In this document: piece by piece, positions 2,652 to 56,170 of the stretch | Layout of the letters: each line of letters begins with the position of its first letter | Numbering within the stretch: position 1 is the first letter of the stretch | From: Telmatactis stephensoni | Taxonomy: Eukaryota; Cnidaria; Anthozoa; Actiniaria; Isophelliidae | DNA length: 64,000 bases | Assembly (NCBI GenBank): GCA_029948255.1 | Contig: JALIZF010001717.1 | Location: forward strand, 62,001 to 126,000 | Direction of reading: 5' to 3' | The notes under the pieces: generated by a model | The model's database searches: none | What the model was told of the DNA's origin: nothing | The model's input: the letters and a program-made list of their open reading frames with translations, nothing else | Position numbers and translations under genes: made by a program

Positions 2652-3462
2652 GTTGTCAAGATACCTGTGTCCCTATTGGTGTCGCAAACAAGAATGTCAT
2701 ACCAGATAGCAGTTTTACAGCAACTTCTATAATTCATAAGGCCTATGTTGCTTATGGTGCACGCCTGAATACTCCAGGTACATGGCAACCCAAAGGAAAT
2801 GGCAATCCCGATGACTATCTACAGATAGACCTGGGTACAGCGGTTGATATTTGTGCAATAGCTACGCAGGGTAATGCTGTCAATCCTGGTGCAAAAGAAT
2901 GGACAACACAATACAAGATATCCACATCTATTGATAACATTACATGGACTGTTTACCCACGTGACTCTTCACCTAAGGTATATCACTGCTACATTTATTA
3001 CATTTCAAAATGCAATCTCACCGACATATAGTTCCAGAAAAAAATAGGTTCATAAAATACAATTATCAAATGCGCTCTTTAATTATTTAGTTAATTAAAA
3101 TGTTTTGTAAAAGATGAATGTTCTCATTTTTGGTTTTGTTTCATAGCAACAAACAAGTCAAATGTAATGAAGTCAAAAATCAAAAGACAAAAACCAAAAC
3201 TCGTGCCTGTTTTCACTCTTTTTAAATTGTGTTGACAAGTTATTGAATCGATTTTTCGTAGTTAACGTTTGCTTGTAGATCTACAAGTTTTCAGTGCTTG
3301 TCTTTTTTTGTAAACAGCTATTCCCTGGTAACACAGATATAAATACTGTTGTCAAGAATGTTCTTGATATCCCTGTCCAGGCAAAACTGATTAGATTTAT
3401 ACCTACAAGGTGGCACTATTACAAAGCTCTACGAGTAGAAGTGTATGAAGTTGTTGTGAAAG
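2652..3462 (+). CDS. Receptor A exons 2-3: F5/8 type C (discoidin) domain
   Basis: Exons 2652-2977 and 3318-3462. The translation opens with a Cys-rich GCQDTCVPIG, then has the discoidin signatures SSFTATS, GARLNT, DYLQIDLG, ICAIATQG, YKISTS and ITWTVYP, and ends with LIRFIPTRW and ALRVEVY. These cover the start, core and final strands of an F5/8C domain of normal length (about 150 residues). Such domains bind glycans, lipids or proteins outside the cell. The donor after exon 2 (AAG|GTATAT) is weak. The intron between is 340 bp. Exon 3 ends in phase 1. Confidence 0.9.
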
Positions 3463-6400
3463 GTGAGTTATTCAGTACTCTTATTTTAACATTAACTATC
3501 CTCAATTGTCATTGAATTGTCATTGTTTAATTAGCATTATTTTCTGCTATTTAGTAATTTGTATTTCACGGATATATTGTTTGCACTCTATTATATCATC
3601 ATCATCATCATTATTATTACAGTCATCGTTAATGTGAAACTATGTATCTTGGAAACGTTAAATCAATTGCTTCTTGTTTAGCATCCAGTAGTGTTATAAA
3701 AGAGTTATCCAACCAAACTCTGCTAGCATCAACCAACAGTCAGGTAGACTTGGTATGCAAGGTACAAGATGGATCGATACAGAATATTGAATGGTATTCT
3801 GGTAGTACTGATGTAACAAGCCTATCTAGTGGTATGACACGTGGAGCTGACTTTGTAAAATCTGTATTAAAAGTTAACTACACGAATGCTGATGATATAT
3901 ACAGCAATTATCAGTAAGTACAAGATGGTTAGGGATTTTATTAGAATTATGCAAAGTGTACATGTCGCCTCATGATAAGTCAGTATTGCTGAGTTGCGTG
4001 TGTCACGGCAGTCATCTTGGATGGACTTTAACAAACGATTTCGCATCAGACCTTGTTCATTCATTTAACATGGCTACCGCATCGTTATTATGCATTCTCT
4101 TTTTAAACCATTCTCAAGGGAATGACTGGAATGGGTGAAATCATGCAATTCAAAGGATCTAGTATAGAGGAGGGAAGCAATTTGCGGATTAATTTTCAGT
4201 CTACAAACTATTATAAATAGCTGATATTGAAATTGCACTCCAATGACTGACCAAAGACTTCATGCAAGTCAAGGCCGCTTTCTGGCAAGTTGCTTCGAAT
4301 CGCCTCAAATTGCAACGTATGTCGTATGTTTAGAGTTACAGTCACTGGTGTGTAAGTGCAATATCAGCTGTTCATTTAACAAATAGATCAGGCGCAGCTA
4401 CGGCTCGTGCTTTCTATAACTTTTTTCGTGTTTTACAGCTTCAGGAGTGTTTCATCAGAGTACAGAACATAGCTACGCCTGATCTATTTGCTTTATATAA
4501 TAGAATTTTACGAGCAAAGAAAGCAAAACTGAGGATAAAAATTTAGGAAAACAGAGCGCGTGTCTTTCGACATTGAATCGACAAAATTTCACAGGATACT
4601 ATCATATCGTCAAAATTATGCAAAAAATAGTTTTTCTATAGTGTTTTATTCTACGTAATTCATTAAGTTACCTCATTTATTTTGAACCGGTGATTAGATT
4701 TCCCAAAAATCTATCTTGCCTGACATGATCCAAACTGAGGTTTACATCCAGAATCTTGAAAGTTGGCGAGGCGTACTTATCGGTACAAAAATGGATTCTG
4801 ATAAGTAAAGAAACTTCTTGTCGTCGTCTTCAACAAGCATGTTGACTTCAAATTGTTGTTTTCAGAAATCGTAGAAATATTGAATGAGTCTCAGACTCAG
4901 ATTTAAGTACATTCTTGCTTTTACAACGTTGAGTGAAGACTGTAGCTCCTCGACAAACATCCAACTAATACTCGATCGAAAAAGCTCACAAATTATATTT
5001 TATAGCTCCAAAAGTTTTGGTTCCAGTTTATAGAAGACGTCAGCTTTGCCTTGAAACCCACAACCTGAAGGTCATTTACATTTGCTGTCTTTTTTTCCGT
5101 GTTATTTGCGTAATCAACTTAAAGCAAAGAGGTTTGCTTTTCTTTCATAGCATTACCTTTTCCCGCCGTTTGGGTGTACAAACGCGCGCGTCCGCTAATA
5201 GAAAATGGCGGGAATTTTCACTTGTTTGGACTTGGTCGCAGGGATTGTGCAATAAAGGAATAAATTTTCTTGTGTTTACTGAAGAAATTTTTGCTTATTT
5301 TGAGAATGAAATAGGCTTGAAGGACTCAAAACAAAGATTGTGAGTAAAAGATTTTGATTTTGTGACGTCACTTCTATTATCTGAACTCTGATAAAGTATG
5401 GCTAATTGACCAATCAGATCGCGCGCTCGTAAAATTGTATCATATAAAACCTGATAATTTGCTTTGTTTCGATACTTTATGTTTATCTGTTTTCAGTTGT
5501 TTGAAAAGTTCATCATCTGTGACATGCAGAAAAACTTTCATATGCAGAGCCAGGAAACCAGGTTCATGTGCTTCTAAGGTTGCTGAAGTTAAAGTAATAC
5601 TCGGTAATGCTCGTCATTGTTTCGAAATATCTATAAACGTTATAGCTATTGATTGCAACAATTTCTAGTTGTATCCTTTTTGACTATCTTTGACTGTTAC
5701 TCATCGATCATTACCAAAGTGCAAGGATTGATTTGATCCGTCATATATTGGTTGTTACAGTGGTCAAATATTACTATTAATCCCTTTACCATGGAACCTC
5801 CATTCAGGTAACCGCACTTTTTTGTCAGACAAAGTGTCCCCTTATACGATTTCAAAGTATTGTGAAACATCCCTCGAGAAGAGGTTAAAATAACAGTTTC
5901 GAAACTTTGAAAAGTTGTCACATAAGTGGAAGTGTTTTCCACCTTCGGGAATGTGAAAAAGTGTTCCCTTAATGAAGGTGTTCCCTTTGAATACGTTGTG
6001 AGATCATGGAAAAATGCGTTTTCACAAGTGTCTTCTTGATATAAATCTATGTTTTTCTCATATGATGGCAATCCCCTGGTTGCAGACTACCCTTCAGCTC
6101 TATCATGGTATCTTGGTGACATATCAGTTAACTCAGTCAAAGTTACATGGACACAACCTGCTCCTAAGTCATCCCAGGGTGTAATCACATCATATGTTAT
6201 ACAATATAATACCAGTTCTGGGATAATACCAGTCAACAAATCACCTCCTGCTAACAGTTTTACCATATATGGTTTAACAACATGTACATACTATAATGTG
6301 AAGATCAAGGCGATCAGTAAACTTGGCGATGGACCATGGAGTTCAAAGACTTTTAGGACACAATCTGAATGTAAGTTTTATCAAGGAATGTTTTACTATC

Positions 6401-9400
6401 ATCTCCACATTTGCTGAATTCTTTTCCATTAGAATCACAGACACATTTGAAAGAGCGTAAATGTATCCATGTAACGCTATTTTGTTGATATAAGTGAGGG
6501 TTATGGGCCTGAAGCGCGAGGGGTATGTGATATATACCCGAGAGCGCAGCTCTACCGAGATTAATACGCATATAGCCACGAGCTAAAAGCCGATAAAACA
6601 CTTACTTTTTACACTGAGAAGGTTTTCAGGGGGGAGGGGGACTAAACCAAGGTAAACCCTCACTTTAACTAACTGCCATGTGACTAGGAATATATCAGGA
6701 TATTTAATATACAATTTTACCATATACTTACTTCGATATCAACACAATATAGCGCGCAAATATGGAGGGCATCGGCCATTGATATCATTCACATGTGATG
6801 ATATCAAAAACAACCAATCAGAGCGCAGGATTTCGATATCATCACATGTGATAATATCAGGTTGATTTTCCCGCCATTCAAGCTAAGTAAGCTACTACGT
6901 ACTCGTTGTAACAACATAGCAGAACAAGGAGACAACTCTCGTTTTTCAACTGTAGAATCTATTGACGAATTTATAGAGGGCCAGGAAAATGCTAATACAA
7001 GAAGAAAAACAAGAAGTGATATGTTGGTGTTGGAAGAATTTCTGAAAACCGTGAAATAAGCTAAGAGAAGTAGAAAACATACCAGCAACAGAGCTAAACG
7101 CTTACTTGAGCGAGTTCATTCTCAGCGTAAGAAAGAAACTCAAAATAATGACGAATACGAGCCCTGCACTCTTAAATCCTTCGTCTCAAGCTTCGAACGC
7201 TATTTGAAAAGTAAAGGTTACGGCTGGAGTATCCTTAATGATGCCGAATTTGAGCGTACAAGAAAAGCACTGCAGTCAAAACAACGAGATCTCAAAAAAC
7301 AAGGGAAAGGCAACAAACCACATGCCTCAACGGCTTTGACTCAAAACCAAATCAAATTCTTGTATGAAAAACACCTTCTGGGACTCTGGCTTCGCCCGAA
7401 AGTCTACTGAATACTATTTGGTTAAATAATACTTTGCACTTTGGCCTTCGAGGCTGCAAAGAATTAACACCGACTTATGTGCTGGGGAGACGTAAAGCTT
7501 CGACAAAACGAAAGTGGGGACGAGTATCTCGAATTTAACGAACGTCAAACAAAGACTCGGACCAGTGATAATTTAAGAGACATTAGGAAAATCACTCCTA
7601 AAATGTTTGCTGTTCCAGGCTGCGAGAAATGTCCTGTTACTGCCTATAAGTTTTACGCAAAGAAAAGACCAGTTGACATGAATGGAGACGACGCGCCTTT
7701 CTATTTAGCAACCAACACTTGTTCAGATTATTCTAGTGGAAAACCTTGGTTCAAGAACAGAGGAGGAGCGCACACCTTCCCAAGATACATTGCGCCTTTG
7801 AAACGTGGATTTGTACAAAATTTATGCTGGAAACGGAGCTAATTTTTGGTCGTTGTATTGAGATGCAGAAATGAATTCCTTTACGAATGAGAAGAAGTGG
7901 TAAAAGAGCTTTCAAACTATTACAAATTTAGCTAATTTTGACATTTCTAAAGGTTTGTAATTTAGATTTGAACTTGAAGTACATTGGGGCCTGAAGAAAA
8001 TACCCAATATTCAAACATCGCTTTCTTTAAAACGAATCAATATAAACTGGTTCTGATTATAGTGTCTTCTAGAGCGATCCTTCCCCTTTTTTGTGGTCTC
8101 AAAGTGACCCTTAGTGACCCAGGATTTCAATTCGAAATTTTAGAATTTATGCGGGATGTTTTGACGTCAAACACAAGCAGCGTGTAGCCGTTGCTGATAA
8201 ACCACTGGCTCAGTGTCTGGGTTTAAAATCGCGTCAATATGCATCATAGTAAAATAACACTTTGCTCTTTGGATTGTGAGAGTAATTCAGGCATCATATG
8301 AAAGGCGTAATGGTAAAATACGACATGTTCTTAGAGCATAACGACTATAACGCTCGGGAAATAAACCAATTTCAGTCCGTGACCTTTGGCGTTATCCGAT
8401 CCTTGCTTCGGTGTTATTTATATTCTCACTCTAAAGTTTCATTGAAGTTTGTTCTTGAATTAATGGCTAGCAATCCAAAATTAATTAAAGATTTAGTGTT
8501 ACAAGTTTAACTTTATTTTACATGTTGTATCACATATTTCGAGAATTAACTGCTCACGAACTTGGACCATGCAGTTCAATCACAGGATTCAACATAAAGC
8601 GTCGCTTCATCCAGCGTATTAATCTTAACAATTATTTTTATGACAAAGAATTGATACTTCAAGCTACACCATGAGTGGGTTTCGTTTTTCACAAGCAATA
8701 GACGATAAATTCCAAAGAACTAGCTTTCCTATACATCGCTATCAATGCTCTCGCTTCGGCGGTGACTTCAACACAATGATGAATGTGCGAAAAAATTGAT
8801 AATATACTTCATTTTGCAATGCATCTCGGGAAGGTGTGCGTTCCTCCTCTGGTTCAAGAAAGCCCCTGTTGGTCAAAACAAACTGAACGCACTTATGAAA
8901 ACCATGGCAGAAAAAGCCTCCCATGGTCCAAATATTACAAATCACAGCGGACGAAAAACTATGATGCAAGCGCTTACAAACAACAACATTCCGCCGACAG
9001 ATATCATTCAGCTTTCTGGGCACAAAAACCTACAAAGCGTTACAAACTACTCTGTAGTCTCTGAAAGCCAACAATTTCAAATGTCCAACACGCTTAGTCG
9101 TCATACAACTGGAGAATCTAATTCAAAAAACCTAGCCTGCCTAGCGGCCCTAAAAGGGAGGGGGAGGGGCTTAGGAAGAGAGGGGAAAAGGGGAGGGGGA
9201 GGGGGACTGGGAAGAAGAAGGGAGGGGGACTGGGGAGGAGGAGGAGAGGAAGGGCCTGCAGACAACCCCCAGGTTTTTTTGAAATTTCCGTTCGTATACG
9301 AACGAAAAATCCTGATTGGTCGAGATATAAGATACGTCAAACTTGATATAAACCAGTCGTGAAGGAGACAACTCAACGGCGGAGGATTTTGATCAAAAAC

Positions 9401-12400
9401 TTGAACTAGTTCTAAGTTCTTTTAAAGAAAAAGGTATTAATTAAGGTATTGTTCTAAAGAAATTAATAAGATATTATTAATAAGAAAGGTTTGATGGCAA
9501 TTCGAAAGAAGATGGATCTAAATCATCGATGTTTAGGTTTGCATCTAAACTTGAATATTCCTCGTTTGGATTCGTAAACAGGGACTTGCGACTCGCGGTT
9601 CGATAATGTGGTGAATTCACTCTTAAAGCCTTTTGTGCAGAGCTAGGACTTTTTCCGATCGGTGTTAGAAGAAGATTGGTGAACTTTCCGCTTCGTGGTT
9701 TTCCTCTCGGGAGTTTTTGCCGTTGCCTTCTTTGCTTTTCGAGATCAGTAAAATATCGTGGAACTGGAAGTAGTTATTGGTCTTTCGTAAGCAGGTACTA
9801 CATACTAGCTGGGACAATTCAGGATGATTTTCTAATACAAATCCAACGACGAGGAGACGATCTGCGAGAACACAATTAAAACCTTCTCTGTGGCATATTT
9901 TGAAGAGATTCGCAAAACTCTTGAACGACATACATCATTGTTGGTATTTTCTTGCTTTCTGCCTCTATAATTTTTACTTAAATTTTCCTTTAGTGTTTGA
10001 CATGTTTTCACATGTGAAATGTTTTGGTTTTATGACAGTTCGCGGTTGTTAGTATTTACATTGTACGTTGACCTTGAAATGACCTCGCAATTTGATTGGA
10101 TGGTTTTGACAAGTGTTACTTGAGGTTCGCAAGAAACCTGCATAATTAATTAGGGGGCGTTCCGAATAAACCTGGGTGATGTTTGCAGGCCCTTCCTTCG
10201 TTCCTCTCCCCCTCCCCTTTTCCCCTCTCTTCCTAAGCCCCTCCCCCTCCCTTCCCCCTCCCTTCCCCCTCCCTTTTAGGGCCGCTACGCAGGCTAAAAA
10301 AACCAAGAAATGCTGACTGAAAGTCAAGAAAGTTTAGCGGCGAACAACAAACATGGCCAGCAAACATTGGCACTTTTTCAAGGAGCTGTGATTCATGGTG
10401 GACAGATATCGATATCTGTCAACAGTCTAAACCAATCGCCTACCATTCAAACCACAGGAAGAAAAGAAGAAAATCAAGAAGGAAAAAGAAAATACACACG
10501 ACTAAAAGTACTGTCGGATTCAGAGGATTCGCTAGATTAGATTAGAGCATGTCCTGTTGACAAGCGACCACAAGCTCGCTTTGATAATTCATTTTCATCG
10601 ATCTTCGCAATTTTTGATATTATCACTTTTAATATTATCATTTTTAAAATTGATCAGTTGTGCTTTTGCCTTTTGTTTTTAAAATAATTTAGCTCATTTG
10701 TAGCATGTAATTGTGATATTTTAGCAAAACTTCAGTCCAAAACGGCCCGGAGTTGACATTTCTATTTCGTTCTATGGTGCACTATTTGTTGTATGTTTTC
10801 ACTCTTTTTCCTTAAAATCTCAGTAATTATATGATAAAAAGAAAATTACACGGCGGCTTGAAGATATGGAGTTTATCTTCTCGTGAAAAGAAATATTTCA
10901 CTCGTTCGCTGCGCTCACTCGTGAAATATTTCTTTCCACTCGAAGATAAACTCCATATCTTCGCGCCACCGTGTAATATCCTCTATATATGAAATATTAG
11001 AGATATAAACACGCTTTGATTGGCTAGCCAGAATGTTTATATATAGAGGACAGATCAGACAAGATTCACGTTGAAACGTTGAAAAATATTTTATGAAAGC
11101 CATGTATAATGATCGCTTATGCAAGTTCCTGTATGCAGTGATATAAACACTTTTGAGGAAGTAGAGCACTCAGCAAGCAAACGCTCTTATGTACGCCTTG
11201 TGCCTCTTACCCTGATTTTCTTGTGCCCTTCATCTTCCACAGTATTTATATCGGACAGAAAACATATGCGCGCGTTTTATGTCGCTTAATTATCAACAAT
11301 TAAACCATTTAGACATCCCAGGAGGGAAGATTCGTAAACTTTGTAATATTTTTCTTACTGTACCACAATGCACTGTTGTTGGTTGCGGTAGTGTTGGTGG
11401 TGGTGGAGAGGTGGTACTTTTTATCTTAAACTCTCCTCTGTTACTTGGTTTTCAGTACCCAAGAAAATCCCTTCAGGCCATGTTCAAGCCAGTGCAGTAA
11501 CATCAACCAGTATACGTGTTTCCTGGAAGGTACGTGGTTGTTGTAAAGCCCTGTCTACACGAACAAATTTTCTATGACACATTTTTGTTGAGAATCTCTT
11601 TGCTTCTGCAGATGAGAACAGTTGGACAAATGCATTTTTATATAAAATTTTGCAGTGTAGTCAGGGTGAATCCATTTGTCATAGAAAGATACGGTGTCAG
11701 TGTTAATTTCAACTGTACACTGACTTCTTAAGGCGACTGACTACGTTGGCAAAAAGTATTAAAAGATCCTTGTTTTGAAACTTTTCTTATGTAAAATACA
11801 ATGTTCAAAACAACAACAACAACAACAACAACAAACTTGGGTGTCCCGATGTCGTTTTCGAGATAATCAGCTTTGAATGCATGCCTTTTTACGAGTTTTT
11901 AGAACAAAGATGGCACTACTGGAAGTCGTCATTCAAAAATTCAAAAATCACAAGATAATCGTTCTACCAGGACTATAATTACACAAATATTAGCCAGAAA
12001 AAATAATCTACATAATGGTATAAGTATTTTTGATGTAATATCAATGAAATACCTTCGAAATCAGTTCTTGACTTTTGTATCGTGCCTCCTATTCAAAATT
12101 CATAATCTGTCCCGGGTTTCCCCTGGGATTCAAAACCTACATTAAACATGATTACAAAAAAACAAACAAACAAACAAACGAACGAACAAAAAAACACTAC
12201 ATGGACGTCTCTTGCAAAAATGAAGAGTTTTTAACCGTCAAAGGTACCGGTGTTGAAACAGCAAAAACAGTGTTGCATTGTTTGCCAAAATAATGCAATG
12301 CGGTCTTGATTTTCGAACGCTTTGCCGCTTCAACGTAGTCATTCACCTTAAACAAGTCAAATATCTGAAACGACACCCAAAACCGAGTACCCACCCAAGT

Positions 12401-14907: not shown

Positions 14908-14940
<33 letters not shown>

Positions 14941-30985: not shown

Positions 30986-31016
30986 GAGCATTGGCAAAGA
31001 TCCAATTAGCTTTCTT

Positions 31017-32400: not shown

Positions 32401-32467
32401 ATGGACGACAGTGAGCTTAAATACTTCCGTGTAATAATTGTAGTCTTACTACTGCTACAAGTTGAAG
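32401..32467 (+). CDS. Receptor B exon 1: signal peptide
   Basis: ATG at 32401 opens MDDSELKYFRVIIVVLLLLQ, followed by VE and a split glycine codon at a GTAAGT donor (phase 1). An acidic start, one lysine and arginine, and the hydrophobic VIIVVLLLL core look like a signal sequence. The next exon starts in the matching phase with CQDTCVPIG. This start is chosen because no other methionine leads into the discoidin exon in phase. Confidence 0.82.
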
Positions 32468-38944: not shown

Positions 38945-38984
<40 letters not shown>

Positions 38985-41900: not shown

Positions 41901-44900
41901 TATTTTTTATTTTTTTCATTTCTTGTAGATCACTTATTCCGGAAAAAAATTATACACTTGTACTTGCACTGGATTCCAAGACAGTGGCAAAGAAGAAACC
42001 ACTTCAAACAACAAGATCGTCACTGGCCTTTACCCAGCTACTAAATACACATTTAAAGTTTCTGCAGTGACAAAATGTGGCCAAGGGAAGCAGAGTAATG
42101 CAGTTGACATAATAACAAAAACTGGAGGTAAAAACCGTACTTATTTTTGTTTTGTTTTAACAGCTTTATTGGCCTTCAGATAATTACATATACAAAACTA
42201 CAATACTACTACTAATAATAATAACAATAATAAAAAAGGACCAAAAGGGAAAGGCGCGAAAGGGACCTTGAGTCCCATGTAGGGGCACATCCCTACTAAA
42301 ACGATAAAAACAATATAATAACCTTGGGCAAAACAAAAACAACTAGACGCCTAATAGGCGTTCACTCGGCTACCACAGGTAGCCCGAGTAAAAAGTTACA
42401 TCTATTGATTGCAAATTAAAACCTACGATAAACTTAGAATAAGTTACTAGAAAAAGCTATAGATAATACTACGAGAATAAACTAGAAATAAACTTTGTCG
42501 AAGAAAACACAGTTAAATGTATTGTTGCCAATGGCAACCACAGTTGTGATTCAGACTCCATGAGCATGGCCGTAAGAACCATTTCAAGTACAGTTTAAAA
42601 AGAATATCTTGCAAAAGACCATCATGCTAAACAAAAAGTTAATCAAACATCAAAGTGTGCGTTAGCCTGCTGGCAGCACTACTCTATCTTCCTTGTGGTT
42701 ATCGAGAAGTTCCTCAACATTAGACTTTCATAGACCTAATCCACGCTCCACAATGTGAATCCCAATTCATGCGTGACAAAACTCTAGACGATTTATTTTC
42801 TTTTGTTTTTACTCTTAAAAATCTCATAAGAATATATCCCAAAGGAATAACGACGATAATCTGGGGTCATCCACTACGGTTAGGACGAAGCTTGTGATTT
42901 GGTAAAGCAAAACTGAAAAACAAAGAATATGCGGATTACTCTGAACAATGTCTTTAACTTATACTTGTCGCCTGTGGCATTGTTTCCTTCCGACCATAGT
43001 GTATTACTGATAATCTGACAAGTCTCAAAACAAAAGTCCATCGTTCCTAGGGAGGTTTGTCATACTGAATTGTCATTGTCATACGATGGATTAGATCTAT
43101 TCAATCAGTCCCTTGAGTCCCAAAAGACACTGAAGCGGCTGCGCTTGTTGGACGAAAAAATACCGTATTGTCAATTTTTTTAAAATTATTTTGATATACA
43201 TAGCTCCACCTGCGGCAATCGTGGACATTGTCTTTACCATTAAAAGTCCTGTGACTAATATTATGTTATGGAAAACGTCTGACATCAATGGACCAATAAG
43301 GTGAGCTTAACTCAGGGGCGGATCCAGGATTTTGCAAAGGGGTCCCAAATAGGCCTCGTGAGAGATGACGTCACATCCAAGATGGCGGCCTCCTAACAAT
43401 GGAATCATCAAATTGGGTTTTGCCGACGAGTAAGTACGGCGCTAAGGGAGTGTCCGGTGCACCTATGGACATCCCCCTGGATCCGCCCCTGTAACTTCTA
43501 CTGACTTCGAATTTGCAAGCTGAAATTTTGTGATATGGGCTCGAACCTATTGTTTAATACAATAACCTTTGTTCTCTTTATAAGTAAATATCAAGTTATC
43601 GTTGGTAAAGTTGTGGACGAGGAGAGAGAAAACCATTCCTTTAATGAAGCAAAGCTAGTAAACTACACCAAAGCACAAGAAATGGGTTTGTCCTACTACA
43701 TAGCTGCTCAACTAACTCCTGACCCCGACAACGTTCCAAAGGACTTGTTCTTTACTTTAGGAGATGGGAAAAAGTACGGAGGATTTGAAAATGTTAAACT
43801 GGAGGAAGGGAAAACCTATGAGGTTTATCAAAGAGCCTTGACTCAAGGAGAAGAGGTACCTTATCATAGGAAATTTTCAATCACAGACATTTCGCGATTT
43901 TGTAAGGTGACTCGAAGTAGTTGTTTTCAGACCGCACCGCACATTTTCATTTGGCGCAATGGACAACGTAATGCGCACCAATGGACTTGGTTTCTACACC
44001 AAATATGAGGATAACTGAGATTGAAGTTTTATATGATGTTATAATTATTCGATCAACATTTTTAAATTAGCGAAAATCGAACATCGTCAAAATTGGTTTT
44101 CCTCTAATATCTCGCAAAATTGATGAGCTTCAGATAAGCGGAAAACTGCATTAAAAAATCCATACAGATGCTCAACATTTCAAAGTGATTTTAGGAGATT
44201 TAATCTGTTTGATTTTCTTTAAATCACCAAAGTTTCCACAGATGCTGTATTTCTATTCTTCGACATAACGGCAGCGTAAAAAGTACTCGAAGTACGCAAA
44301 ACACCACGAGAACACTGTGGAAATATTGCTAAAATATACACACTTACCTTACGTAAAAAAGCCGACTTTCAACTCTTCATCGATGTCAAGATAGATTATT
44401 TTCTTTACACGTCTCTCGTGAGACATTTTCTCCGCAACTTGTACATCAGAAGTTGTTTTTGAAAATCTCAAAAACGCAGGATTATTTTCATTTGGCGCAA
44501 TGGACAAGGTAATGCGCACCAATGGACTTGGTTTCTACACCAAATATATAAGATTGGAGTTTTAAATGGTGTTATAATTAAATCGATCAGCGTTTTTAAA
44601 ATAGCGAAAATCGAACATCGTCAAAAATTGTTTTCCTCTAATATCTCGCAAAATTGATGAGCTTCAGACAAGCGGAAAACTGCATGAAAAAATTTAGACA
44701 AATGTACAACATTTCAAAGTGATTTTAGGAGATAGATTTAATCTGTTTGATTTTCTATAAATTTCACGAGAACACTGTGGAAATATTGCTAAAATATACA
44801 AATAAAAAAATTCGGACATCGATGAAGAGTTGGAAGTCGGCTTTTTTACGTAAGGTAAGTGTATATTTTAGCAATATTTCCACAGTGTTCTCGTGGTGTT

Positions 44901-47900
44901 TTGCGTACTTCGAGTATTTTTACGCTGTCGTTATGTCCAAGAATAGAAATACAGCATCTGTGGAAACTTTGGTGATTTAAAGAAAATCAAACAGATTAAA
45001 TTTCCTAAAATCACTTTGAAATGTTGTGCGGTCTGAAAACAACTACTTCGAGTCACCTTAATTCATCCACTTAAGTTGCTTACAGGAAAAACACATTTCA
45101 GATCGAGAAGTGGTGGAAACGAGCAGTGGTCGAATCTGCGCAATTCAACTGAAATGGTTTCCACAACGATTCCAACGTTGCTCCTTTTATGCAGGCTAGA
45201 AATCGGGTCGATAGAGAGCATATCCCGTAAATTGCTTATCCGTTACGTTTTTGACATTTGACATTGACAATGTTTATTATCAATTTATTGACATTGTTTC
45301 GTATTATCAAAAATTCGGTTTATAAATTTCAATACTCCACTGAATCTGCAAATAGTTATTTTAACACAACAAGTAAATTTCTCGCAATCTGATTCGGTGA
45401 AACCCATGTTCGATCGGAGGCGAAAGTAGTGAAAAATGTCTGGGCATGCTCCTAGTCACGTCTTGGTGCTTTTGTAATCTTATGCAAATTTCGCTTTAAT
45501 TTGTAAATTCGCTGGAATTTAGCGCTAGCATGCTGATAAATCATCATGAAACACATTTCTGACGCAATTTTTATTGAATAGACCATAGAAAAGCGACTTC
45601 GATTTGTTAAATAACTAGCTTTTTTCTGAAGCCGGATCCATTTTTGTGCATTATATTCTAAGGGATTTTCAGATTTATGCTTTCAATAGCGACTAAATAA
45701 TTAATTTTCATCAATGGTTTAATTACAGAAGTTTCTACTTGGCAAAGCAGTCTTGATCGCAAACGGTACAGTAAGTGAAGGTAAGTATACATGTTCAATA
45801 CCCTGTATTGGTTTCTATAAAAAATACACGGTTTGAAAAGCCTCTTGGCCTGTGTGTTCACAGACGAGAAAATTTGGAACGTCGGTTCGTATTTTTTTAC
45901 TTATAGATTCCCTGGTTTGAGCTACTCGATGTAAAAGCTTACAATTATAATTCAAGTTGATAAGGCATCAGTTAGGGAAACCAAACCAGAAAGGATGACG
46001 TCTCACACACAAATTGAAATAAACTTGCTTCTATTATGTTAGATTTACGTAAGAGCGACCAATCTCAAGATGGCAAAAAAGGTAAATGTAAGTCAGCACC
46101 TAACAAAGCGATCCAATTTTGCTCTATAGAGGGATTTCACGGCAGACATGTTTGTGGTCAAAATAATAGACCTTTTCTCCCAAGAGAAAAAAAATATTTT
46201 GATTTGTTATTCAAAAACTTTCTATTGTACTTGCCTACAAACATGGCTGAAACATGAAATCCCTCTACTGACCAACAGTACGTTTTTTTGAATGCAAAAT
46301 CAAGAGTAACACACATGGACTTAATAAATATTTCTTGGTATCGTTTAAATTAAAAAATCATTAGAATCAAGTACCAGTTGTCATTTTTATTTAGGTTCCA
46401 GTGAATTTGCTTACCGTTTCATCATGGCTGCTGTGATTGTCACACTGATTGTTATCATCGTCGTACTTCTTATTTACATTCAAAGATTAAGGAAACGACT
46501 TTACGGTAAGTCATCTTGTATAGATGTAACTCACCTGCATTGGTAAACCGTATAATTACTACCCTGTACCTATAAGCTCGGAAAACTTTAGTGGATCGTG
46601 TCTGCTCATAGGGAAATTAAGCGAGAATAAGTCCCCTCATGTTCAGTACTCAAGAGACGTGTTTAGTTTTAGTTCATGAAACCTGTCTCAGGACAGATCT
46701 AGTCCCCACAACACACTAATGATTAACAAAAAAGCGGATACTGTCCCAAATACACCATCCCGTGCAAATTTTTCTTTAACGCTACATGTAATACCGAGTT
46801 GCGGGAGCACGCAGGTTGCACGCAACCAGTATCTACGGTCGATTTTTATCTATGCAATGTATTCTCGCAACGTTACACGCAGCATTGAGTAGTGAGTGGA
46901 GACACGGTGCATCTCGTGTACTGCGTAAATGTGCAATGAAAAAGGTAATTCCGAAAACGCTTATTTTCCTACTCACCTAGTTTTTCTAGAATTACTTTAT
47001 ATTCTGCCATTTGTATTAATTGTGAAGCCTAAGACTAATTTCAAATACTTTTTTTCAGGCAAAGGAATACCAAACGAAAGGTAAAGAGCTTATTTTTATA
47101 AACTAACAAACGAAGGCACATTTCAACTAACATTCAATCTATTTATCTTAAAATTTGATGATATTCCACATCAGAAGAAATAAAAGCTTTCTTTAGTTAA
47201 TTTTAGTTGAAGCTAAGGCCGCAAAAGCTCATAAAAGTTCTTTTTTATGAAAATCACCTTTGGTGATGAGGCCACCTCGTAAAATATTATCATTATTATT
47301 TTATTATTATCGTTGTCTAGAGAATACATTGACAACGACTGTCCCCTACCACTTGAGAACCATTAAGTAACAAAACATTTAAGAAGTGGGCAAACCTCTG
47401 TTCTGTTGCATTACAAGTTCCCCACATTATTATATCTTGGTTTTAAGAGTTTTAAAAATACATCAACTTATAGATACCATGTGAATAAAATACGCTTAAA
47501 TCTGATTTCGAAACCTAATCAGCTCATTGTTGGCTTTTGATATAACTGAGCACCCTGCTGTTGGCAGTTAATTGAAGAAATCTTGACCTATTGGTCAAGA
47601 TCTCAGGCCAACATGAATAACGTACAGCATTTATTTTGTCCTGAGATCATTTTATCCATCTATGTAGCAAGTGGGAAATTTGTCGACGCAGCGGGCCGAA
47701 AGTTACGCGGGCTCTGGGTAAGAGATTGCTTGAAGGCTACCTGTGGCAAGAATGTTAACAGTATGGCTGCCAGTTTCGTTAGACTACTGTTTTTGTATAT
47801 TTGTGTAATCTCAATGTATTTCGCTTCCTCCAGAGCTTGCAATTGTGTAGTTTAAGGTGCAAAGTTCCTGAATCATCTGATCCAAGGATATTAGGCTCTA

Positions 47901-50900
47901 TGCTAAAATTCTGCCCATTTAATTGGGGGTTTTACATGATAAACACGATGGAACGTGACAGTCACGTTCGTGTTTCCCATGCATTTTTGATGACTTAAAA
48001 TCATAGCTCAGGCAATTTTCAAATACATTTTTTGAGAAAACTAGCTTAGTACGATGCACAAAGATGAACCCTGTGTAATTTCGGTTTTGGAGCAAAAGCC
48101 AGAATTTAAGATAAACGCTTAACAGTTTTGTACATATCTCTTCTAACTGCAGCACAGAAAAAAGCAATAAGTTTAATAGCGAAATCAGTAGGAAAATAAC
48201 CTTGATCACGAATTATTTTTAGCAAGATTGAAAGGAAAAACATATAAGAATGTGAAATGAATTCAAGAAAGATAAGTTTAAAAAGAAATTACTTGTAATG
48301 TTTACCTCAGAATAATGGTATTACACACGAGTTCAGTTTTTGCCACATGTGCTAAATATCAAAAATATTTTTCGTATGATAGGCAATTTTCAAGGAACAT
48401 AATTAGTCTAAACTAAGTAGCAAAATAGCTAAATAACAAGAAAAAGTCAAAGGATTTTTTGAAGCAAACGCAAGAACGTTGAACTACACGCAGTTTTGAG
48501 AATGATGTCGAATCAGAGACCAAAACCTGTTGATGCCCAATTTCATCGCACAAAATCTTCATTTGTCTCTGGAAAATCTTAAGTTCAGCGTATGAGTTAA
48601 CATTTATATCATAGCCCATTATAATGTCAACAACTTCACTTACCATTCATCAACAGTTTGCCCAACATTGGCCACGTACAGTTTTATTGTCAGTAGACAG
48701 CTTTGAATGAATGTCAACAACACACGAAAAGTAGAAACGTTGAGTTATGAATGGTTTCCCAACCAAATTAGTTGCGAGTAAGCCACTAGCAATATCCAAG
48801 TCGTAAATTACGAAAAAAAAATAAGCTTCTTCTTTGTACGTAAATCCTTGAATTTTGAATGATTTATCAATTGAATTCGTACTCTATCCAGCATTCTCCT
48901 CACTGAAGGACAACCGTGAATTTCTTCAAACCAAGATAATCTGTAGTACTTGAAGTAGTTTTGAGAGCTTTTAAAGCATCCAAATTAGACTTGAAATTCG
49001 AGAAAAGACATTTATAGGGAAAAGGATGTTTAGAAAGCTCAACATTCTATTCTATTCATTAAATCATGTTGACCACTGTTTACATTTTTAACTTTCCCGC
49101 GTGCCACAGGAAGCCCCCGCGACGCATGCGCAGACAAATTTCCCACCTGCTCATCTATGTTATATACTTGCCCAATAATGTTGAGTTCGTGTACGCCCTG
49201 TTACACGTGATCATGTTATCGTTAAGAGCTAAGCTCATGTGCCCTATAACCCTTTGCCAGTGAATGCACATGCAATCAACATTCGTTTATTTGTTATTAT
49301 AACCTGCGGTTTTGCGGTTTATGACTTCACATTTTGTACGTGGTTTGGGGGATTTTGACGATTTTTGTTGCGTTTTTTCTCAATTATGTTTGCGGTTTTG
49401 TTGTTACCATAAGCCCTTAAAACCCTCTCATTGATCAACTATGTTGAAACTTTTTAAAACACTGAAACACGGCACTTATACGGCACGGCCGTTTTCATCA
49501 CTCACACGAACTCTGCTCTATTAGTACCATACTAGCACTAATGGTAATAAAAATTTTACAAGATTCTTCAAGGCAACTTCTTATCATTTACCCATACATT
49601 TTTGTTTTGATTAAGTATAGAGTAATTTGACATGATTCTATGGAATTTTTTATGAACAGGTTTTCTAGACATATAGCAATAGCAGATGAAAAAGATGAAA
49701 ACACTTTTGAGGTAAGAACTACACTTGAAAATTCAGTTAATCCTCCATGAAGTCGGCTTTAATTGGGTTGTGCTTCTTGATCGATGGTCACGGCCGTGGC
49801 CATATAAGCACTTGTGACAGATTACATTTTTATTAAGTTATGTAAGAAAAGAAACATTTTATGGAACAGTTTTTCATGCAGCGTCGTGCCTTGTTCTAGA
49901 AGTTTAATTGGTTAACAGCTCAACCCATATACGCTGCTTCACTTATGTGCAGCATATAATGAACAGTTATTGGATGAGGTTTTGATGATATTTAGTAAAT
50001 AAACCTCTCCTGGCGGCTGGTATATCGAAGGATAATGTCCGAGGATTAGAGATGGTCCGAAAAATGAACATTTGGCCGAGAAGCGAAGCTTCGAGGGCAA
50101 ATGAGATTTTTTGAGGACCATCTCTACTGAACCGAGGACATTAATTATACTTCGATATGCCAGTGAGCCAGAAGGGGTTTATTTATTTTTTATTATTCAA
50201 TTTTCATACACTGTACAAATTCTGATTTTCTGATTGGTCAGTTTGTACCACGTGACGCGTTGTTATGACGTGACAACACGTCACGAGGGATTAATACCGA
50301 CGTATTAATTTTCTATAAAATCACGCGTGCGTTATGAAGGTAAACTCAATTTCATTGAAGTTTTTGGAGCTTACTGAGATCAACATATTTCAACTGTTAT
50401 CCAAAGCCTATCTCATAGAAAGTTTAGAAAGTCTGTCGCCACAAGTCTGTCTCTGTTTTTAACGGTAAGCTTACGAAGTTCTAACTTTCATTCAAACCGT
50501 AAATTCAGTTTTTGGCGTGTTGTTTTTGTCAAAACACTATTCGCCGGCTTTGCAAATTCATCACTATAATTTTTGTTTTTTAGACTGGCTATCCAAAAAA
50601 TATCCAACAGAAAGTCTGGAAATCCTTTCCCCGCAACTTCTCTCAGATGGGGTAAAGAAATTTTATCATGAATCGAAAAAATCGCCAAACGAGTACTTCA
50701 GCCTTCGGCTGTCGACAAACGAAAACTACTTCTTCCCGGCTTCATGCACCAAGGTTTAGCAGCGTTTCAACCGTAAGTCGCCAGTTTAAACCTATATCCA
50801 AAACTCCAGCGATAATTTTCTAGACCTTTCACTTACCGAGTTCTAGGACTCAGTGATGAATCACTTAACGATCCAAAAAAGTCTGAGTTCTTTGTTTATA

Positions 50901-53544
50901 AGACTTATGGACGATTTCAATTTTACCGAGCAAGTTGTAAACATGGATTCTGAGAACTCGTTTATTATTCTTGTATCACGGTACTTTTCTCCTAGTTTTC
51001 TTCTGAAAGGTTTATTTTAATTTGTATTGTTAAAATTACCAAATGCTATTAAATAAATTTTGAATAAGTCTTACTATTTTGGATGACTTGAGTTAAGCTT
51101 ATTTCTAGTGATCTTAGATGTCGACTGACAGTTTTAGCCTGCTTCTGCAGTGTATTCAAATTGAATAATAAAAAGGTTAACGCACTCTTTGCTCGTGAAT
51201 TATCGGGATTTTATCTTCACTCGTTTACTAACAATGAACTCGAAATTTTTTCATACTGCACTCGGCTAACGCCTCGTGCAGTATTTAAAATTTCTCGTTC
51301 ATTGTTAGCAAACTCGTGAAGATAAATCCCGATAATTCACTCGCTGAGTGCGTTAACCTCTAAATATCCCTCCGATAAATTTTCTTGCTTCATCTTTGAA
51401 AGAAAAGCAAACTTTGGGCAAAACCCACTCAAGTGCTTTTTAAACGATTGTGATTGGCTCTTACACATTTTATTTGTCTCTGATTGGTTGTTTGGCTGGT
51501 AAGCTCTGCCGTTGTCATGACTACAGTGAAGCTACTCGCTGCATGCAGAAAGTAGAGGCGAACACAACATTTTGGGGGAGCAAAATGCATCAAAAATTCA
51601 TCAAAATTCATATCTGTCTGCATGTTAACGGGAGAAAAGTATTGTTTTGCCATTAAAATTTTTCCTTGAATGTCTTTTGGATTTGTTAATTTGTGTTTTC
51701 GGGGCAATTTTTCTTTAAAATGATAAGCTGGAAAATCATATGATTATACTAAGAGAGCGTTAGATGCAATTCGATAGTCATTGAATTAAAGTAAAAATTG
51801 TAGTCTTTAAAAGCCAAAAAAGGCGTATTTCGAGGTGAAGGATGACTTGCAAACTGACAGCTCACTTCAAAGACCCGACGCGTACGAGGAGTTTTCACAG
51901 ATTTGTTGGCTAGGTTATCTACCGTAAAGAATAGCCAAGGGTGATTTCTGAATTCTCTGTCCCTACCGAATGCTGAAGTTTGCCGCTTTGGTGGAAATCC
52001 ATCGCTGTTGAAGCAGTTGAGCTAAAGTTTACAAGTCGTTTTTCAGTGCTGTCTCATTCGTCGATAAATTAATGCTCGTGTTGACTGCAAGCTGACTAGG
52101 TGAGAATTTTGAGTGAAATGTAGGTACAATCTTTTGTTTTGCATAAATTGCTAAACTTTTATTTAACTTAACCCAAAAGAACTTTGGCGAAACGCCGAAA
52201 ACATATCTGTCTGCATGTTAACGGGAGAAAAGTATTGTTTTGCCATTAAAATTTTTCCTTGAATGTCTTTTGGATTTGTTAATTTGTGTTTTCGGGCCAA
52301 TTTTTCTTTAAAATGTTATTCCTCCGGCCCTAAATTAAAGGAAAAATCCCTATATTTTTGTCCTATCATTTCTATTTTTCGCTGAGCGGACTGATATCAC
52401 CTCGGACGGGGGATATCGCAGGATAGCTGTCCGCTGAAAATGTACCACGTGACCTGTTTTAGCCAATAGGTGCACGTAAAAATTTATCGGTGGGATATAA
52501 CAGAAATTATCAATGTCGAAGTGTTCAGTATTCGCAGAATCCTTAGATTGATAATTCCGGATATCCTCAAAACAGAATTCAACAAGTGTTTTATTATACA
52601 TTGTTTGAGTGAAAATAAAGTACAGCACTGTACAGACTGTAGTAATCAAACAATTCTGAAAAACGAACAAACTTGGACAAAAGTTCTAAAGTTAAGGCAA
52701 TTTCTGAAAAAAGGTAAAATTGTGGGTTATGCACTAGCTTTGATTTTATGTGTATACCTTTTTCTATCTCTTGTACTACAGCTATTTTTTTCTGTAAAAT
52801 CTTTCGCCTGTGTTCGTTCGTTTTTCAGCCCCGTTGTCAGTGGTAACCTACAGGCAACTATCAGTCCGCGGACTTACGCAGGCTCATTTTTATAAACAAC
52901 ACCTGCAGACAACCACAAGACCGCTGAAATATCGCTGCAGCGCACTGATAGTTAATATTGATCAATGAAAACACAGTTACTGAGTACAATGTATAATAAT
53001 ATTATTTAGTTCGACTCCGAAGTGACTTTTGAGTGTCGTGCCATTTCCGTGTCGCAAAGTGCGAAAGACCCTGTCAAACTTATCAAAGTTGTCGAGCTCA
53101 AAAAAAGCTGCCGAACCAATTTGATCCAGACCCTGCTCTTGTATAACGGGCCTAACACAAATTCTTCTGCAGAATACCAGTGTTACAAGACCACCTGAAG
53201 GCATTACAATGAACGTATTGAATTCATACTACGAGCAAGTTGATCAGAAGCCTTCTAAAATACCCGATTTACAACAGCAGGCTGTTGTCGATCCCTCCAG
53301 TGTTCACCCTAAAGTCGTCAGTAGCCCTTCATATCAGAGTGATTATCAAGCACTGGAGACACGTACCAAGAACACTAGCGATGAGTACGAAAACCTTCAC
53401 CCGGAGACTAAGAAACTAGCAAACATATCTAATGATCCTACAGATTTGACAACCTATCAGTCCCTTGATAATACTGCTACTGTGCAGTCTTTTTATGAAG
53501 ACTTGCATGCGTATGTGAACACAAAATCGGAAGTTGACATATAA
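32401..53544 (+). CDS. Receptor B: F5/8C-Ig-FN3 receptor with tyrosine-motif tail (frameshifted as sequenced)
   Basis: Sixteen exons: 32401-32467, 34650-34975, 35625-35770, 39052-39283, 39492-39601, 40243-40533, 41404-41510, 41929-42127, 43204-43300, 43585-43855, 45729-45780, 46043-46087, 46395-46505, 47059-47080, 49660-49711, 53173-53544. Phases agree at every junction. The gene encodes 832 residues if the single extra base in exon 3 is ignored. It is the tandem paralogue of receptor A, with the same ectodomain order but only FN3-1, FN3-6 and the membrane-proximal domain. As written, an extra G near 35672-35674 shifts the frame, and a TAG at 35754 would end the product after about 174 residues. 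All later exons remain open, so this is either very recent decay, a null allele, or a sequence error. Function is as for A, inferred only. Confidence 0.8.
34650..35770 (+). CDS. Receptor B exons 2-3: F5/8 type C domain, with frameshift
   Basis: Exons 34650-34975 and 35625-35770. The first is equal in length to its paralogue and reads GARLNTTGTW, DYLQIDLGKA and ITWTVYPRD. Exon 3 has 146 bp against 145 bp in receptor A: GTTCTGGGATATC replaces GTTCTTGATATC. The first part reads LFPGNTDIDTVVKNVL, and the rest (DIPVQAKLIRFIPTRW) is in another frame. The donor of exon 2 (GTGGAT) is weaker than in receptor A. Confidence 0.8.
35217..35398 (-). mobile_element. tRNA-derived SINE, family 1 (extra copy in unit 2)
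   Basis: Minus-strand head AGGAGGCAGCATGGCCGAGT and B-box-like GGTCCCAGGTTCGATTCCC. It lies in the intron between the two F5/8C exons of receptor B and has no counterpart in receptor A. Confidence 0.7.
35851..35950. repeat. G-rich minisatellite (GGGGGGCAT units)
   Basis: About 100 bp of GGGGGGCATG-type units with runs of up to ten G, ending in GGGGGGAGGTGGGGGG. It has high potential for G-quadruplex formation on the plus strand. It is followed by AAATCCGCAAATCCGCAAG-type repeats (35958-35998, also 36240-36350). Confidence 0.85.
37009..37860 (+). pseudogene. Second Crypton relic: 5' end fused to a C-terminal fragment
   Basis: The left end shares TTCGATATCAACACA and GCGCGCAAATAT with the Crypton at 6728. 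After about 200 bp of leader, an open stretch reads LDDSHYDEVDEFQLREISLK, then, after a frame change near 37490, FNPMFCNQRAMAPF, NYTGCTFSYF and KRRRAFILDSDGGD with a stop at 37668. This is the tail of a Crypton-type protein. The recombinase core is missing. A reverse-oriented relative of the leader lies at about 52320-52560. Confidence 0.55.
37929..37988. repeat. Perfect 60 bp palindrome
   Basis: From GATTTCAAAATGGATATAAT to the exact complement ATTATATCCATTTTGAAATC. All 60 bases pair and there is no spacer (centre AATT|AATT). It lies in the intron before the Ig exons of receptor B and has no counterpart in A. Confidence 0.95.
38742..38864. repeat. MITE-like inverted repeat
   Basis: GTAATTGAACTTTGTGTCAT on the left and a complementary end finishing GTTCAATTAC on the right. 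GCAATTTTGGTCTGAAATCA is mirrored by TGATTTTAGACCAAATTGC. About 120 bp. Confidence 0.7.
39052..39601 (+). CDS. Receptor B exons 4-5: Ig-like domain
   Basis: Exons 39052-39283 and 39492-39601. Features are VDLVCKVQD, IEWYFDV, NADDIYSNY and the YHC junction motif, then SSVTCRKTFICKAR and VAEVKVIL. The second exon has one more codon than in A and keeps the extra cysteines, with SSTCGFE replacing SCASK. The intron before exon 4 is 3.3 kb here against 0.2 kb in A. Confidence 0.85.
40243..40533 (+). CDS. Receptor B exon 6: FN3 domain 1
   Basis: SVKVTWTQPTLKASQG, ITSYVIQYN, INGLTTCTYYNVKIKASS and GDGPWAS. It is two codons longer than the A exon (SLNSR region). It ends in phase 1 and joins directly to the exon homologous to FN3-6 of A. 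Confidence 0.9.
40940..41005. repeat. FN3-flanking repeat, single hybrid copy in unit 2
   Basis: The left flank matches the left flank of 11256-11320 (GAAACGTTGAAAAATATTTT, then GTATTTATATCG). The right flank matches the right flank of 16846-16912 (ACTGGTAAAAA, then the SINE). Confidence 0.82.
41022..41190 (+). mobile_element. tRNA-derived SINE, family 2 (unit 2 copy)
   Basis: Orthologous to the copy at 16943: CCTAGTGGTGAAAGCACTGC as A-box region and TTTCAGTCCC as a decayed B box. Its presence in both units dates it before the duplication. Confidence 0.6.
41404..42127 (+). CDS. Receptor B exons 7-8: FN3 domain equivalent to FN3-6 of A
   Basis: Exons 41404-41510 and 41929-42127. PRGLGITSV, TVHLQWREPPS, ITYSGKKLYTCTCTG, TGLYPATKYTFKVSA and GQGKQSNAVD. 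Exon lengths are identical to those in receptor A. Confidence 0.9.
42137..42577. mobile_element. Unclassified insertion in intron 8 of receptor B
   Basis: Receptor A reads straight through GCCGTAAGAAC. In B, CCGTA occurs on both sides of about 440 bp that begin with a T-rich stretch and include (TAA)n-like sequence and GCCTAATAGGCGTTCACTCG. It is possibly a retroelement 3' end; no coding sequence was recognised. Confidence 0.5.
43204..43855 (+). CDS. Receptor B exons 9-10: phosphatase-type membrane-proximal domain
   Basis: Exons 43204-43300 and 43585-43855. Same lengths as in A, with KYQVIVGKVVDEE, MGLSYYIAAQL, LGDGKKYGGFENV and GKTYEVYQRAL. The GGF form is even closer to the receptor phosphatase pattern than the EGF of A. 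The intron between is enlarged by a 179 bp MITE. Confidence 0.77.
43313..43491. mobile_element. MITE with CAGGGGCGGATCC ends
   Basis: CAGGGGCGGATCCAGG at the left, CCTGGATCCGCCCCTG at the right; 179 bp. TAACT is duplicated on both sides (43308-43312, 43492-43496), and receptor A has the empty site at about 19288. A partial relative with GGGCGGATCC and GGATACGCCCCTG ends lies at about 63635-63798. Confidence 0.88.
43905..45058. mobile_element. 1.15 kb inverted-repeat transposon in intron 10 of receptor B
   Basis: Ends AGGTGACTCGAAGTAGTTGT and ACAACTACTTCGAGTCACCT, flanked by TA. Internally, a block containing CTAATATCTCGCAAAATTGATG occurs twice (about 44040-44250 and 44580-44760), and GTGTATATTTTAGCAATATT is mirrored, so it is partly a composite foldback. 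Absent from receptor A. Confidence 0.75.
45729..46505 (+). CDS. Receptor B exons 11-13: linker and transmembrane helix
   Basis: Exons 45729-45780, 46043-46087 and 46395-46505, the same lengths as in A. Linker LGKAVLIANGTVSEG and DLRKSDQSQDG, then helix FIMAAVIVTLIVIIVVLLIY and a basic stop RLRKRLYG. The helix again has no charged residue. Confidence 0.85.
47059..49711 (+). CDS. Receptor B exons 14-15: cytoplasmic juxtamembrane microexons
   Basis: Exon 47059-47080 (GKGIPNER after joining) and exon 49660-49711 (FSRHIAIADEKDENTFE). The intron between them contains a 1,486 bp transposon absent from unit 1. Phases fit the transmembrane exon and the tail exon. Confidence 0.7.
47666..49151. mobile_element. 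1.49 kb transposon with 9 bp TSD, absent from unit 1
   Basis: Inverted ends AGCAAGTGGGAAATTTGTC and GACAAATTTCCCACCTGCT (one mismatch). CATCTATGT is duplicated on both sides (47657-47665, 49152-49160). Unit 1 has the single target at about 24093. No transposase was recognised. A 9 bp TSD suggests a Mutator-like element. Confidence 0.87.
49997..50184. mobile_element. MITE, AAATAAACC ends
   Basis: AAATAAACCTCTCCTGGCGG and CCAGAAGGGGTTTATTT are imperfect inverted ends. GATAATGTCCGAGGA and TCTAGAGATGGTCC-type segments are mirrored inside. It lies in the last intron of receptor B. Confidence 0.7.
51175..51358. mobile_element. Palindromic MITE, GGTTAACGCACTC ends
   Basis: GGTTAACGCACTC, GTGAATTATCGGGAT and TAACAATGAA are all mirrored on the right (TTCATTGTTA, ATCCCGATAATTCAC, GAGTGCGTTAACC). 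The centre is TGCACTCGGCTAACGCCTCGTGCA. Confidence 0.8.
51609..52315. repeat. 114 bp direct repeat at both ends of a 0.7 kb segment
   Basis: 51609-51722 and 52202-52315 are nearly identical (CATATCTGTCTGCATGTTAA through TTTCTTTAAAATG; one G/C difference in TTTTCGGG). The segment lies in the last intron of receptor B; unit 1 lacks it. Confidence 0.8.
53173..53544 (+). CDS. Receptor B last exon: cytoplasmic tail with ITAM-like YxxL pairs
   Basis: 123 residues after the TTCTTCTGCAG acceptor. Motifs: SYYEQV, PSYQSD, SDYQAL, DEYENL, TTYQSL, SFYEDL and HAYVNT. The spacings of 10 and 9 residues between paired YxxL motifs are the same as in A, although the tail has gained a QQQAVVD stretch. SDYEQV of A became SYYEQV, so one ITIM-like site differs. 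Confidence 0.85.
   Translation, partial: NTSVTRPPEGITMNVLNSYYEQVDQKPSKIPDLQQQAVVDPSSVHPKVVSSPSYQSDYQALETRTKNTSDEYENLHPETKKLANISNDPTDLTTYQSLDNTATVQSFYEDLHAYVNTKSEVDI

Positions 53545-56119: not shown

Positions 56120-56170
<51 letters not shown>

Follow-up and report, generated by a model that had tools for sequence, protein, structure and literature searches.

The window, i.e., the whole stretch of 64,000 nucleotides that was analyzed, corresponds to C238:62001-126000 of the assembly and harbors two predicted receptor genes on the plus strand, A and B, which end in a tyrosine-motif tail. Two-domain receptor phosphatase (RPTP) genes, R1 and R2, flank the tail genes on the opposite strand, and a third tail gene, D, is located farther along the same contig. 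Gene A (2652-26216, plus strand) was rebuilt from its splice sites as 19 exons with a predicted frame of 1200 residues ending at the stop of the tail; AG/GT was found at all internal exon borders, and the phases match at every junction. The predicted order is F5/8C, Ig, six FN3, an RPTP-type membrane-proximal domain, a membrane helix, and a tail of 116 residues, with the following parts:

exons 2652-2977 and 3318-3462 (span 2652..3462), plus strand: F5/8C domain, PF00754 (F5_F8_type_C) 71.2 bits in the joined exons
exons 3682-3913 and 5497-5603 (span 3682..5603), plus strand: Ig domain, seen only below the Pfam cut-off (Ig_3, 18.6 bits against 30)
6086-6370; 11456-11529+12675-12897; 13237-13539; 14017-14313; 15706-16029; 17325-17431+17837-18035, plus strand: six FN3 domains, PF00041 in six stretches
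exons 19184-19280 and 19385-19701, plus strand: RPTP-type membrane-proximal domain, Fn3_PTPRU (PF23144) 40.3 bits, cut-off 24.7
21926-21967, plus strand: juxtamembrane exon of the in-frame chain; exon frame uncertain, as two frames are open and the borders are unsettled
22763-22873, plus strand: membrane-helix exon of the in-frame chain
23435-23456 and 25126-25168, plus strand: two short cytoplasmic exons that jointly bring the frame into the tail exon
25866-26216, plus strand: tail exon with stop, seven tyrosines, five Yxx[LIV] motifs

The signal-peptide exon of gene A was found at C238:60870-60935, 1131 bases to the left of the window; the signal-peptide exons of both A and B lie outside the exon set of an earlier note on this DNA. 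The best PDB matches of the F5/8C domain were C domains of factor V/VIII-type proteins and neuropilin-2. For the FN3 region, RPTP F and delta were the top three of the 31 PDB sequences retrieved at E ≤ 1e-10, and for the joined membrane-proximal domain, RPTP mu and delta made up all three PDB sequences at E ≤ 1; the second membrane-proximal exon alone, searched at E ≤ 10, gave a fourth, unrelated match (E 1.5). PTP_tm scored 23.5 bits in gene A, below its Pfam cut-off of 26.3. An AlphaFold2 model of the membrane-proximal exon reached a pLDDT of 57.8, and Foldseek returned no match for it at E 0.001. Rfam and tRNA scans of the window gave no match. An intron of gene A holds open frames at 7468-9362 (plus strand) with DUF3504 (30.1 bits) and Phage_integrase (32.4 bits), which we take to resemble a Crypton-type tyrosine-recombinase element. 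Beside 25126-25168, a second, similar short cytoplasmic exon with the same phases at 25399-25432 is a possible alternative exon; B and D each carry a variant of the first of these exons (25126-25168).

Gene B (34650-53544, plus strand) follows the domain order of A in a shorter copy with two FN3 domains only:

32401-32466, plus strand: signal-peptide exon, peptide identical to that of R1 (C238:59624-59559) and matching that of A (C238:60870-60935) in 20 of 22 residues
34650-34975 and 35625-35770 (frameshifted), plus strand: F5/8C domain, by exon comparison
39052-39283 and 39492-39601, plus strand: Ig domain, by exon comparison
40243-40533; 41404-41510+41929-42127, plus strand: two FN3 domains, by exon comparison and Pfam
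43204-43300 and 43585-43901, plus strand: RPTP-type membrane-proximal domain, PF23144 42.0 bits
46395-46505, plus strand: membrane helix of the in-frame chain
47059-47080 and 49660-49711, plus strand: short exons of the in-frame chain
53173-53544, plus strand: tail of the in-frame chain, 123 residues

In B, too, two short exons lead the frame into the tail; the second differs in length from its counterpart in A, and the frame still fits. A one-base length difference shifts the frame in F5/8C exon 2 of the window copy, and the copy of this exon on contig C818 has the unshifted length. If the short juxtamembrane exon of B is included, the frame would run into a stop at the junction; skipping this exon preserves the frame. 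At the splice donor just past the membrane-proximal exon of B sits an insert (43904-45057) bounded by terminal inverted repeats; the few additional bases seen at the matching site of gene A may be the footprint of an excision.

The exon sequences of A and B bear signs of coding constraint. Indels between them are multiples of three in 6 of 7 cases within 14 exon pairs and in 5 of 41 cases in the flanks (Fisher P 0.0002), the flank count covering flanks of >70% identity and excluding those of 70% or less. Over ten exon pairs, with F5/8C exon 2 and the three shortest exons excluded, dN/dS was 0.60; for the tails of A and B it was 0.39 (one-sided P 0.023), and for the tails of A and D 0.59, which is not significant (P 0.12).

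The earlier note had described both receptors as carrying F5/8C, Ig, FN3, and an RPTP-like membrane-proximal segment, followed by a tail of about 120 residues rich in YxxL motifs and free of any catalytic domain. The domain plan was confirmed, in a single frame and by Pfam for A and with the frameshift in the window copy of B; so was the tail, with 116 and 123 residues, five Yxx[LIV] motifs, and a frame that ends at a stop. No PTP catalytic domain was found within genes A, B, and D, the frames of A and B and the tail exon of D ending in a stop. As to catalytic exons in the window, PF00102 has no match on the plus strand among the listed matches (best 150 of 271 candidates scored), yet phosphatase exons of R2 lie in the window on the minus strand and were overlooked in that note:

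55644..63501, minus strand: 3′ part of R2 with two phosphatase domains, convergent with B, from PF00102 matches and open frames
63501-63355, 63207-63082, 62826-62665, 59773-59540, 57564-57364, 55826-55644, minus strand: open frames of R2, by frame reading
63373-63489, 59627-59770, 57388-57564, minus strand: PF00102 matches in R2, by profile search

The ectodomain of R2 is situated to the right of the window, and R1 runs leftwards on the minus strand from its signal peptide at C238:59624, to the left of the window. Comparison with protein A showed that the exons of R1 and R2 follow the same order of F5/8C, Ig, FN3, and membrane-proximal domain. Both genes have D1 and D2 phosphatase exons, i.e., two phosphatase domains with the catalytic signature, D1 carrying WPDKGVP and [10 protein letters not shown]; the signature halves HC and SAGVGRTG sit in different exons. 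The joined cytoplasmic exons of R1 matched PF00102 in two stretches with 465 bits, its first phosphatase domain gave PTPRS/LAR as the best PDB matches, and its second has WPS, not WPD. The membrane helices of R1 and R2 are unrelated to those of A and B. An RRKR stretch resembling a furin site is present in the membrane-proximal exon of R1 and R2 (C238:32572-32284 and 132796-132516, minus strand) and absent in A and B. Serial F5/8C copies, most of them diverged from that of A, occur in R2 and D at C238 144-170 kb and 206-210 kb (minus strand). Genome-wide, scoring of the best 150 of 271 candidates gave at least 164 matches to PF00102, on contigs C260, C123, C1245, C110, and others; many of them lie close together on one contig, and they reflect either a large phosphatase expansion or haplotype duplicates.

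A six-frame search of 483.5 Mb of the genome, in which 12 of 12 candidates were scored, retrieved four matches to the tail, namely, A, the C818 copy of A (A′), B, and D. The tail of gene D lies at C238:183959-184324 on the minus strand, as found by this search, and the gene comprises F5/8C, Ig, FN3, membrane-proximal domain, helix, short exon, and tail. The tails of A (116 residues) and B (123 residues) contain five Yxx[LIV] motifs each, more than the mean of 1.25 and 1.49 obtained for shuffled tails (P 0.0018 and 0.006). Pairs of the form Yxx[LI]-x(6-12)-Yxx[LI] occur twice in each (P 0.0005 and 0.00125 from shuffles), and the classical ITAM, Yxx[LI]-x(6-8)-Yxx[LI], has no match in the tails of A and B. 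The tails of A, B, and D have seven tyrosines in common (an eighth is present in B), along with five Yxx[LIV] motifs and two ITAM-like pairs whose spacers measure 10 and 9; motifs and spacers are kept despite 81-88% identity and indels of 7 and 1 residues between the motifs. The ITIM [SIVL]xYxx[LIV] was matched three times in A (P 0.003 against chance), three times in B (P 0.007), and once in D. Since the spacers of 10 and 9 are kept in all three genes and the ITIMs number 3, 3, and 1, the conserved feature of the tail appears to be the tandem pairs and not the ITIMs. Of the ITAM/ITIM character that the earlier note had suggested for the tail, the enrichment of Yxx[LIV] above chance and the constant spacing stood; the ITAM spacer of 6-8 was absent, and the ITIMs dwindled from three to one in D.

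The main point, which that note had overlooked together with the neighboring phosphatase genes, is the homogenization of the ectodomains. A and R1 are placed head-to-head and are divergently oriented, with start codons 1245 bases apart on C238 and 1205 on C818. The homogenized tract of A (2635..12148, plus strand) is an inverted copy of C238:50831-41378 in R1, with 98.82% identity over 9526 columns (∼9.5 kb), introns included. From F5/8C to FN3, 550 of 559 residues are identical (dS 0.005), and the DNA of the Ig domain is 100% identical. Past the tract, two short blocks of 98-99% are followed by steps of 93.7, 93.2, ∼83, 81, and 74% identity; dS reaches 0.51 in the last FN3 exon, and past the membrane-proximal domain the two genes are unrelated. 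At sites where B and R1 differ, the ratio of those at which A agrees with R1 to those at which it agrees with B was 8:41 near the signal peptide, rose to 89:3 for the exons from F5/8C to FN1, and was 20:204 for those from FN6 to the membrane-proximal domain (Fisher 7.7e-24 and 1.8e-54 for the contrasts). To the left of the tract, at 415-914 of the window, identity is 88.5% between A and R1 and 88.7% between B and R1, and A and B share 85.5% over positions 1-911; the three genes are about equidistant there. Such a tract, with a limit at either end, is the expected outcome of conversion or of a double exchange.

Contig C818 repeats the layout, with A′ and R1′ inverted at 98.6% identity over 5.1 kb, single exons being lower (94.5% for F5/8C exon 1 and 94.8% for Ig exon 1). 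From this layout and the 95.7-99.6% identity of its long colinear blocks with C238, we infer that C818 is the other haplotype. A 6.4 kb stretch of R1 is 100% identical between C818:98001-104425 and C238:44929-51353 (next blocks 96.7-99.4%), and hence the two contigs are not independent witnesses over this stretch. Between A and A′, the ectodomain shows 89% residue identity (FN5 75%, FN3 81%), the membrane-proximal and cytoplasmic part 95.5% overall, and the tail is identical in 116 of 116 residues. No positive selection was found in the A/A′ ectodomain (dN/dS 0.63; in FN3-5, dN 0.096 is lower than dS 0.163).

Phylogenetic analysis was carried out for three parts of the genes. In the Ig+FN1 tree, R2 grouped with D (bootstrap 100) and A with R1, the latter with a support of 72 despite 99.6% identity. 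In the FN3-5 tree, built without B as it has no such exons, the groupings A/R1 and R2/D were each recovered with a bootstrap of 100, A′ standing apart from R1 (89.2% identity). Trees of the membrane-proximal domain with receptor phosphatases had been proposed in the earlier note; in the tree of FN6b and the membrane-proximal exon, from which the C818 copy of B (B′) is absent, as the stretch analyzed there ends before this exon, the tail genes A, A′, B, and D were split from R1 and R2 with a bootstrap of 100. Because the trees group A with R1 and D with R2 at the ectodomain and place the tail genes together downstream, the discordance between ectodomain and cytoplasmic part is, by these trees, repeated in two phosphatase/tail pairs.

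The conversion of a phosphatase-type ectodomain into an ITAM/ITIM-type chain had also been suggested; its first half, the origin, is well supported by sequence comparison, since R1 and R2 share the ectodomain plan and have tandem PTP domains, and the tail genes diverge from them just past the membrane-proximal domain. That the tail exon might belong to a separate gene was rejected on the frame chain in A and B and the same exons on C818 and in D. Splicing of A or B into the phosphatase exons of the window was likewise rejected; those exons are on the opposite strand, in the convergent gene R2. A tail left over from behind the catalytic domains of an R3-type RPTP was considered; R3-type tails bear YxN motifs, and the accessible text of the source reports that R3-type RPTPs were not found in Nematostella or Hydra (PMC5336234). 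R1 is LAR-like.

Homologues of the stretch from the membrane-proximal domain to the tail of A were sought among 1523 candidates, none of which was found at E 0.001, and none of the 24 candidates for the tail pair was confirmed. With the membrane-proximal exon pair, one of two candidates was a 58-residue ENA fragment of 80% identity. This fragment, P0001 (on a 639-base contig), matches the start of the membrane-proximal exon and also resembles the preceding intron-encoded residues; by this likeness, a close relative is represented in the public databases. No relative was confirmed among the pattern matches in genome_contigs (41) and viral_contigs (95 and 50). A phosphatase/tyrosine-tail receptor pair was not seen among the titles and abstracts retrieved from open-access literature and may still be in print.

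Near-identical ligand-binding ectodomains (550 of 559 residues in A and R1) and clustered genes with homogenized ectodomains, as in paired receptors, were both found at this locus, and the cytoplasmic parts differ by sequence, with tandem PTP domains in R1 and a tyrosine-motif tail in A. On balance, we favor the interpretation that A, B, and D are non-catalytic receptors that descend from an RPTP and have been retained as partners to the phosphatases next to them, similar to the paired receptors of vertebrates. The portion of a LAR-like RPTP past the membrane-proximal domain would have been exchanged for another helix, short exons, and a tyrosine-motif tail, and the resulting genes would sit among the parental phosphatase receptors and act as their partners. 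As the signal peptide and the first five ectodomain domains are almost identical, R1 and A very probably bind the same ligand, and divergent transcription from ∼1.2 kb means that co-expression is possible. The ligand-binding halves would be kept alike by conversion from one inverted copy to the other, with the tails staying different. A ligand would bring the phosphatase and the tail receptor to the same contact. A Src-type kinase may then phosphorylate the tail, the phosphorylated tandem Yxx[LI] pairs may recruit tandem-SH2 proteins such as Syk, and the phosphatase partner would set the threshold by dephosphorylating the tail or its effectors. Ligand sharing, co-expression, phosphorylation, the effector, and the sign of the signal are thus what we infer for the pair. 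Conversion could also be a by-product of the inverted repeats, without selection for pairing.

Three other explanations were weighed. The tail receptor may be a decoy or dominant-negative form that competes for the ligand or dimerizes with the phosphatase, its Yxx[LIV] motifs serving only AP-2 type endocytosis and not SH2 signaling. The ectodomain common to A and R1 and a pair spacer outside the classical ITAM range agree with this, and YQAL, YQSL, and YEDL are also compatible with YxxPhi, the general sorting motif; however, one or two motifs suffice for sorting, and five motifs, seven common tyrosines, and a constant pair spacing in three genes ask for more, so that we regard this explanation as unlikely. 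Less probable still appears an inhibitory receptor acting through ITIMs and SHP-type phosphatases, with both partners dampening the signal. It draws on the three ITIM matches each in A and B, which exceed chance, but D retains a single match while the ITAM-like pairs persist, and a phosphatase joined by a second inhibitor would presumably provide no opposition.

The least probable explanation, and a highly doubtful one, is an assembly artifact, gene A being an unreal chimera produced by the false joining of haplotypes or of inverted copies. Its proponents could point out that the inverted identity of 98.8% falls within the range of the long colinear blocks of C818 and C238 and that A′ and R1′ match each other more poorly than A and R1. 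The similarity of A and R1, however, declines stepwise from 98.8 to 74%, C818 has the same layout, and D with R2 repeats the pattern; moreover, a single misjoin is an unlikely source of the tract because it is bounded on both sides.

Inhibitory Siglec partners use ITIMs. The genetic precedent that comes closest to A/R1, going by the accessible text on it, is SIGLEC11/SIGLEC16 of primates, head-to-head genes ∼9 kb apart with N-terminal ectodomain exons homogenized by conversion (PMC5701461). A and R1 are likewise head-to-head genes with ectodomains kept alike by conversion and different signaling ends, whereas the Siglecs have Ig-type domains and the activating partner uses an ITAM adaptor. The present locus, unlike SIGLEC11/16, combines a partner that is a phosphatase in its own right with one that bears the tyrosine motifs. 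The FN3 run and membrane-proximal domain of A resemble those of LAR/R2A RPTPs (PTPRF, PTPRS, and PTPRD), a likeness that in R1 and R2 extends to the tandem PTP domains; in contrast to these RPTPs, A, B, and D end in a tail behind an unrelated helix and have F5/8C at the N-terminus. Arthropod Dscam carries FN3 domains and, to our knowledge, has no F5/8C, RPTP membrane-proximal domain, or phosphatase partner. It is described, in the accessible part of the source, as an Ig-containing receptor with ITAM/ITIM-like tail motifs (PMC6851185) and is similar to A in this combination. The allorecognition receptors Alr of Hydractinia and FcoR of Botryllus are, like A, invertebrate cell-surface receptors encoded in gene clusters and provided with ITAM/ITIM-type tails; they are set apart by description, as they have other ectodomains and the accessible text mentions no phosphatase partner that shares the ectodomain (PMC12065747).

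A more far-reaching possibility, put forward tentatively, is a paired-receptor system of a non-bilaterian in which a genuine receptor phosphatase would act as the inhibitory member and its own copy, devoid of the catalytic domain and provided with an ITAM-like tail, as the activating one, the two sharing a promoter and being matched by conversion in at least two pairs for the recognition of self/non-self, symbionts, or pathogens. Paired receptors with homogenized ectodomains are best known from vertebrate immunity, and the same logic would apply here in a probable cnidarian, at a locus that pairs an enzyme on one side with a tyrosine-motif tail on the other. The locus suggests how an adhesion phosphatase could give rise to an immune-type receptor and may serve as a test of whether the pairing of phosphatase and substrate is an ancient means of setting the threshold in contact recognition.
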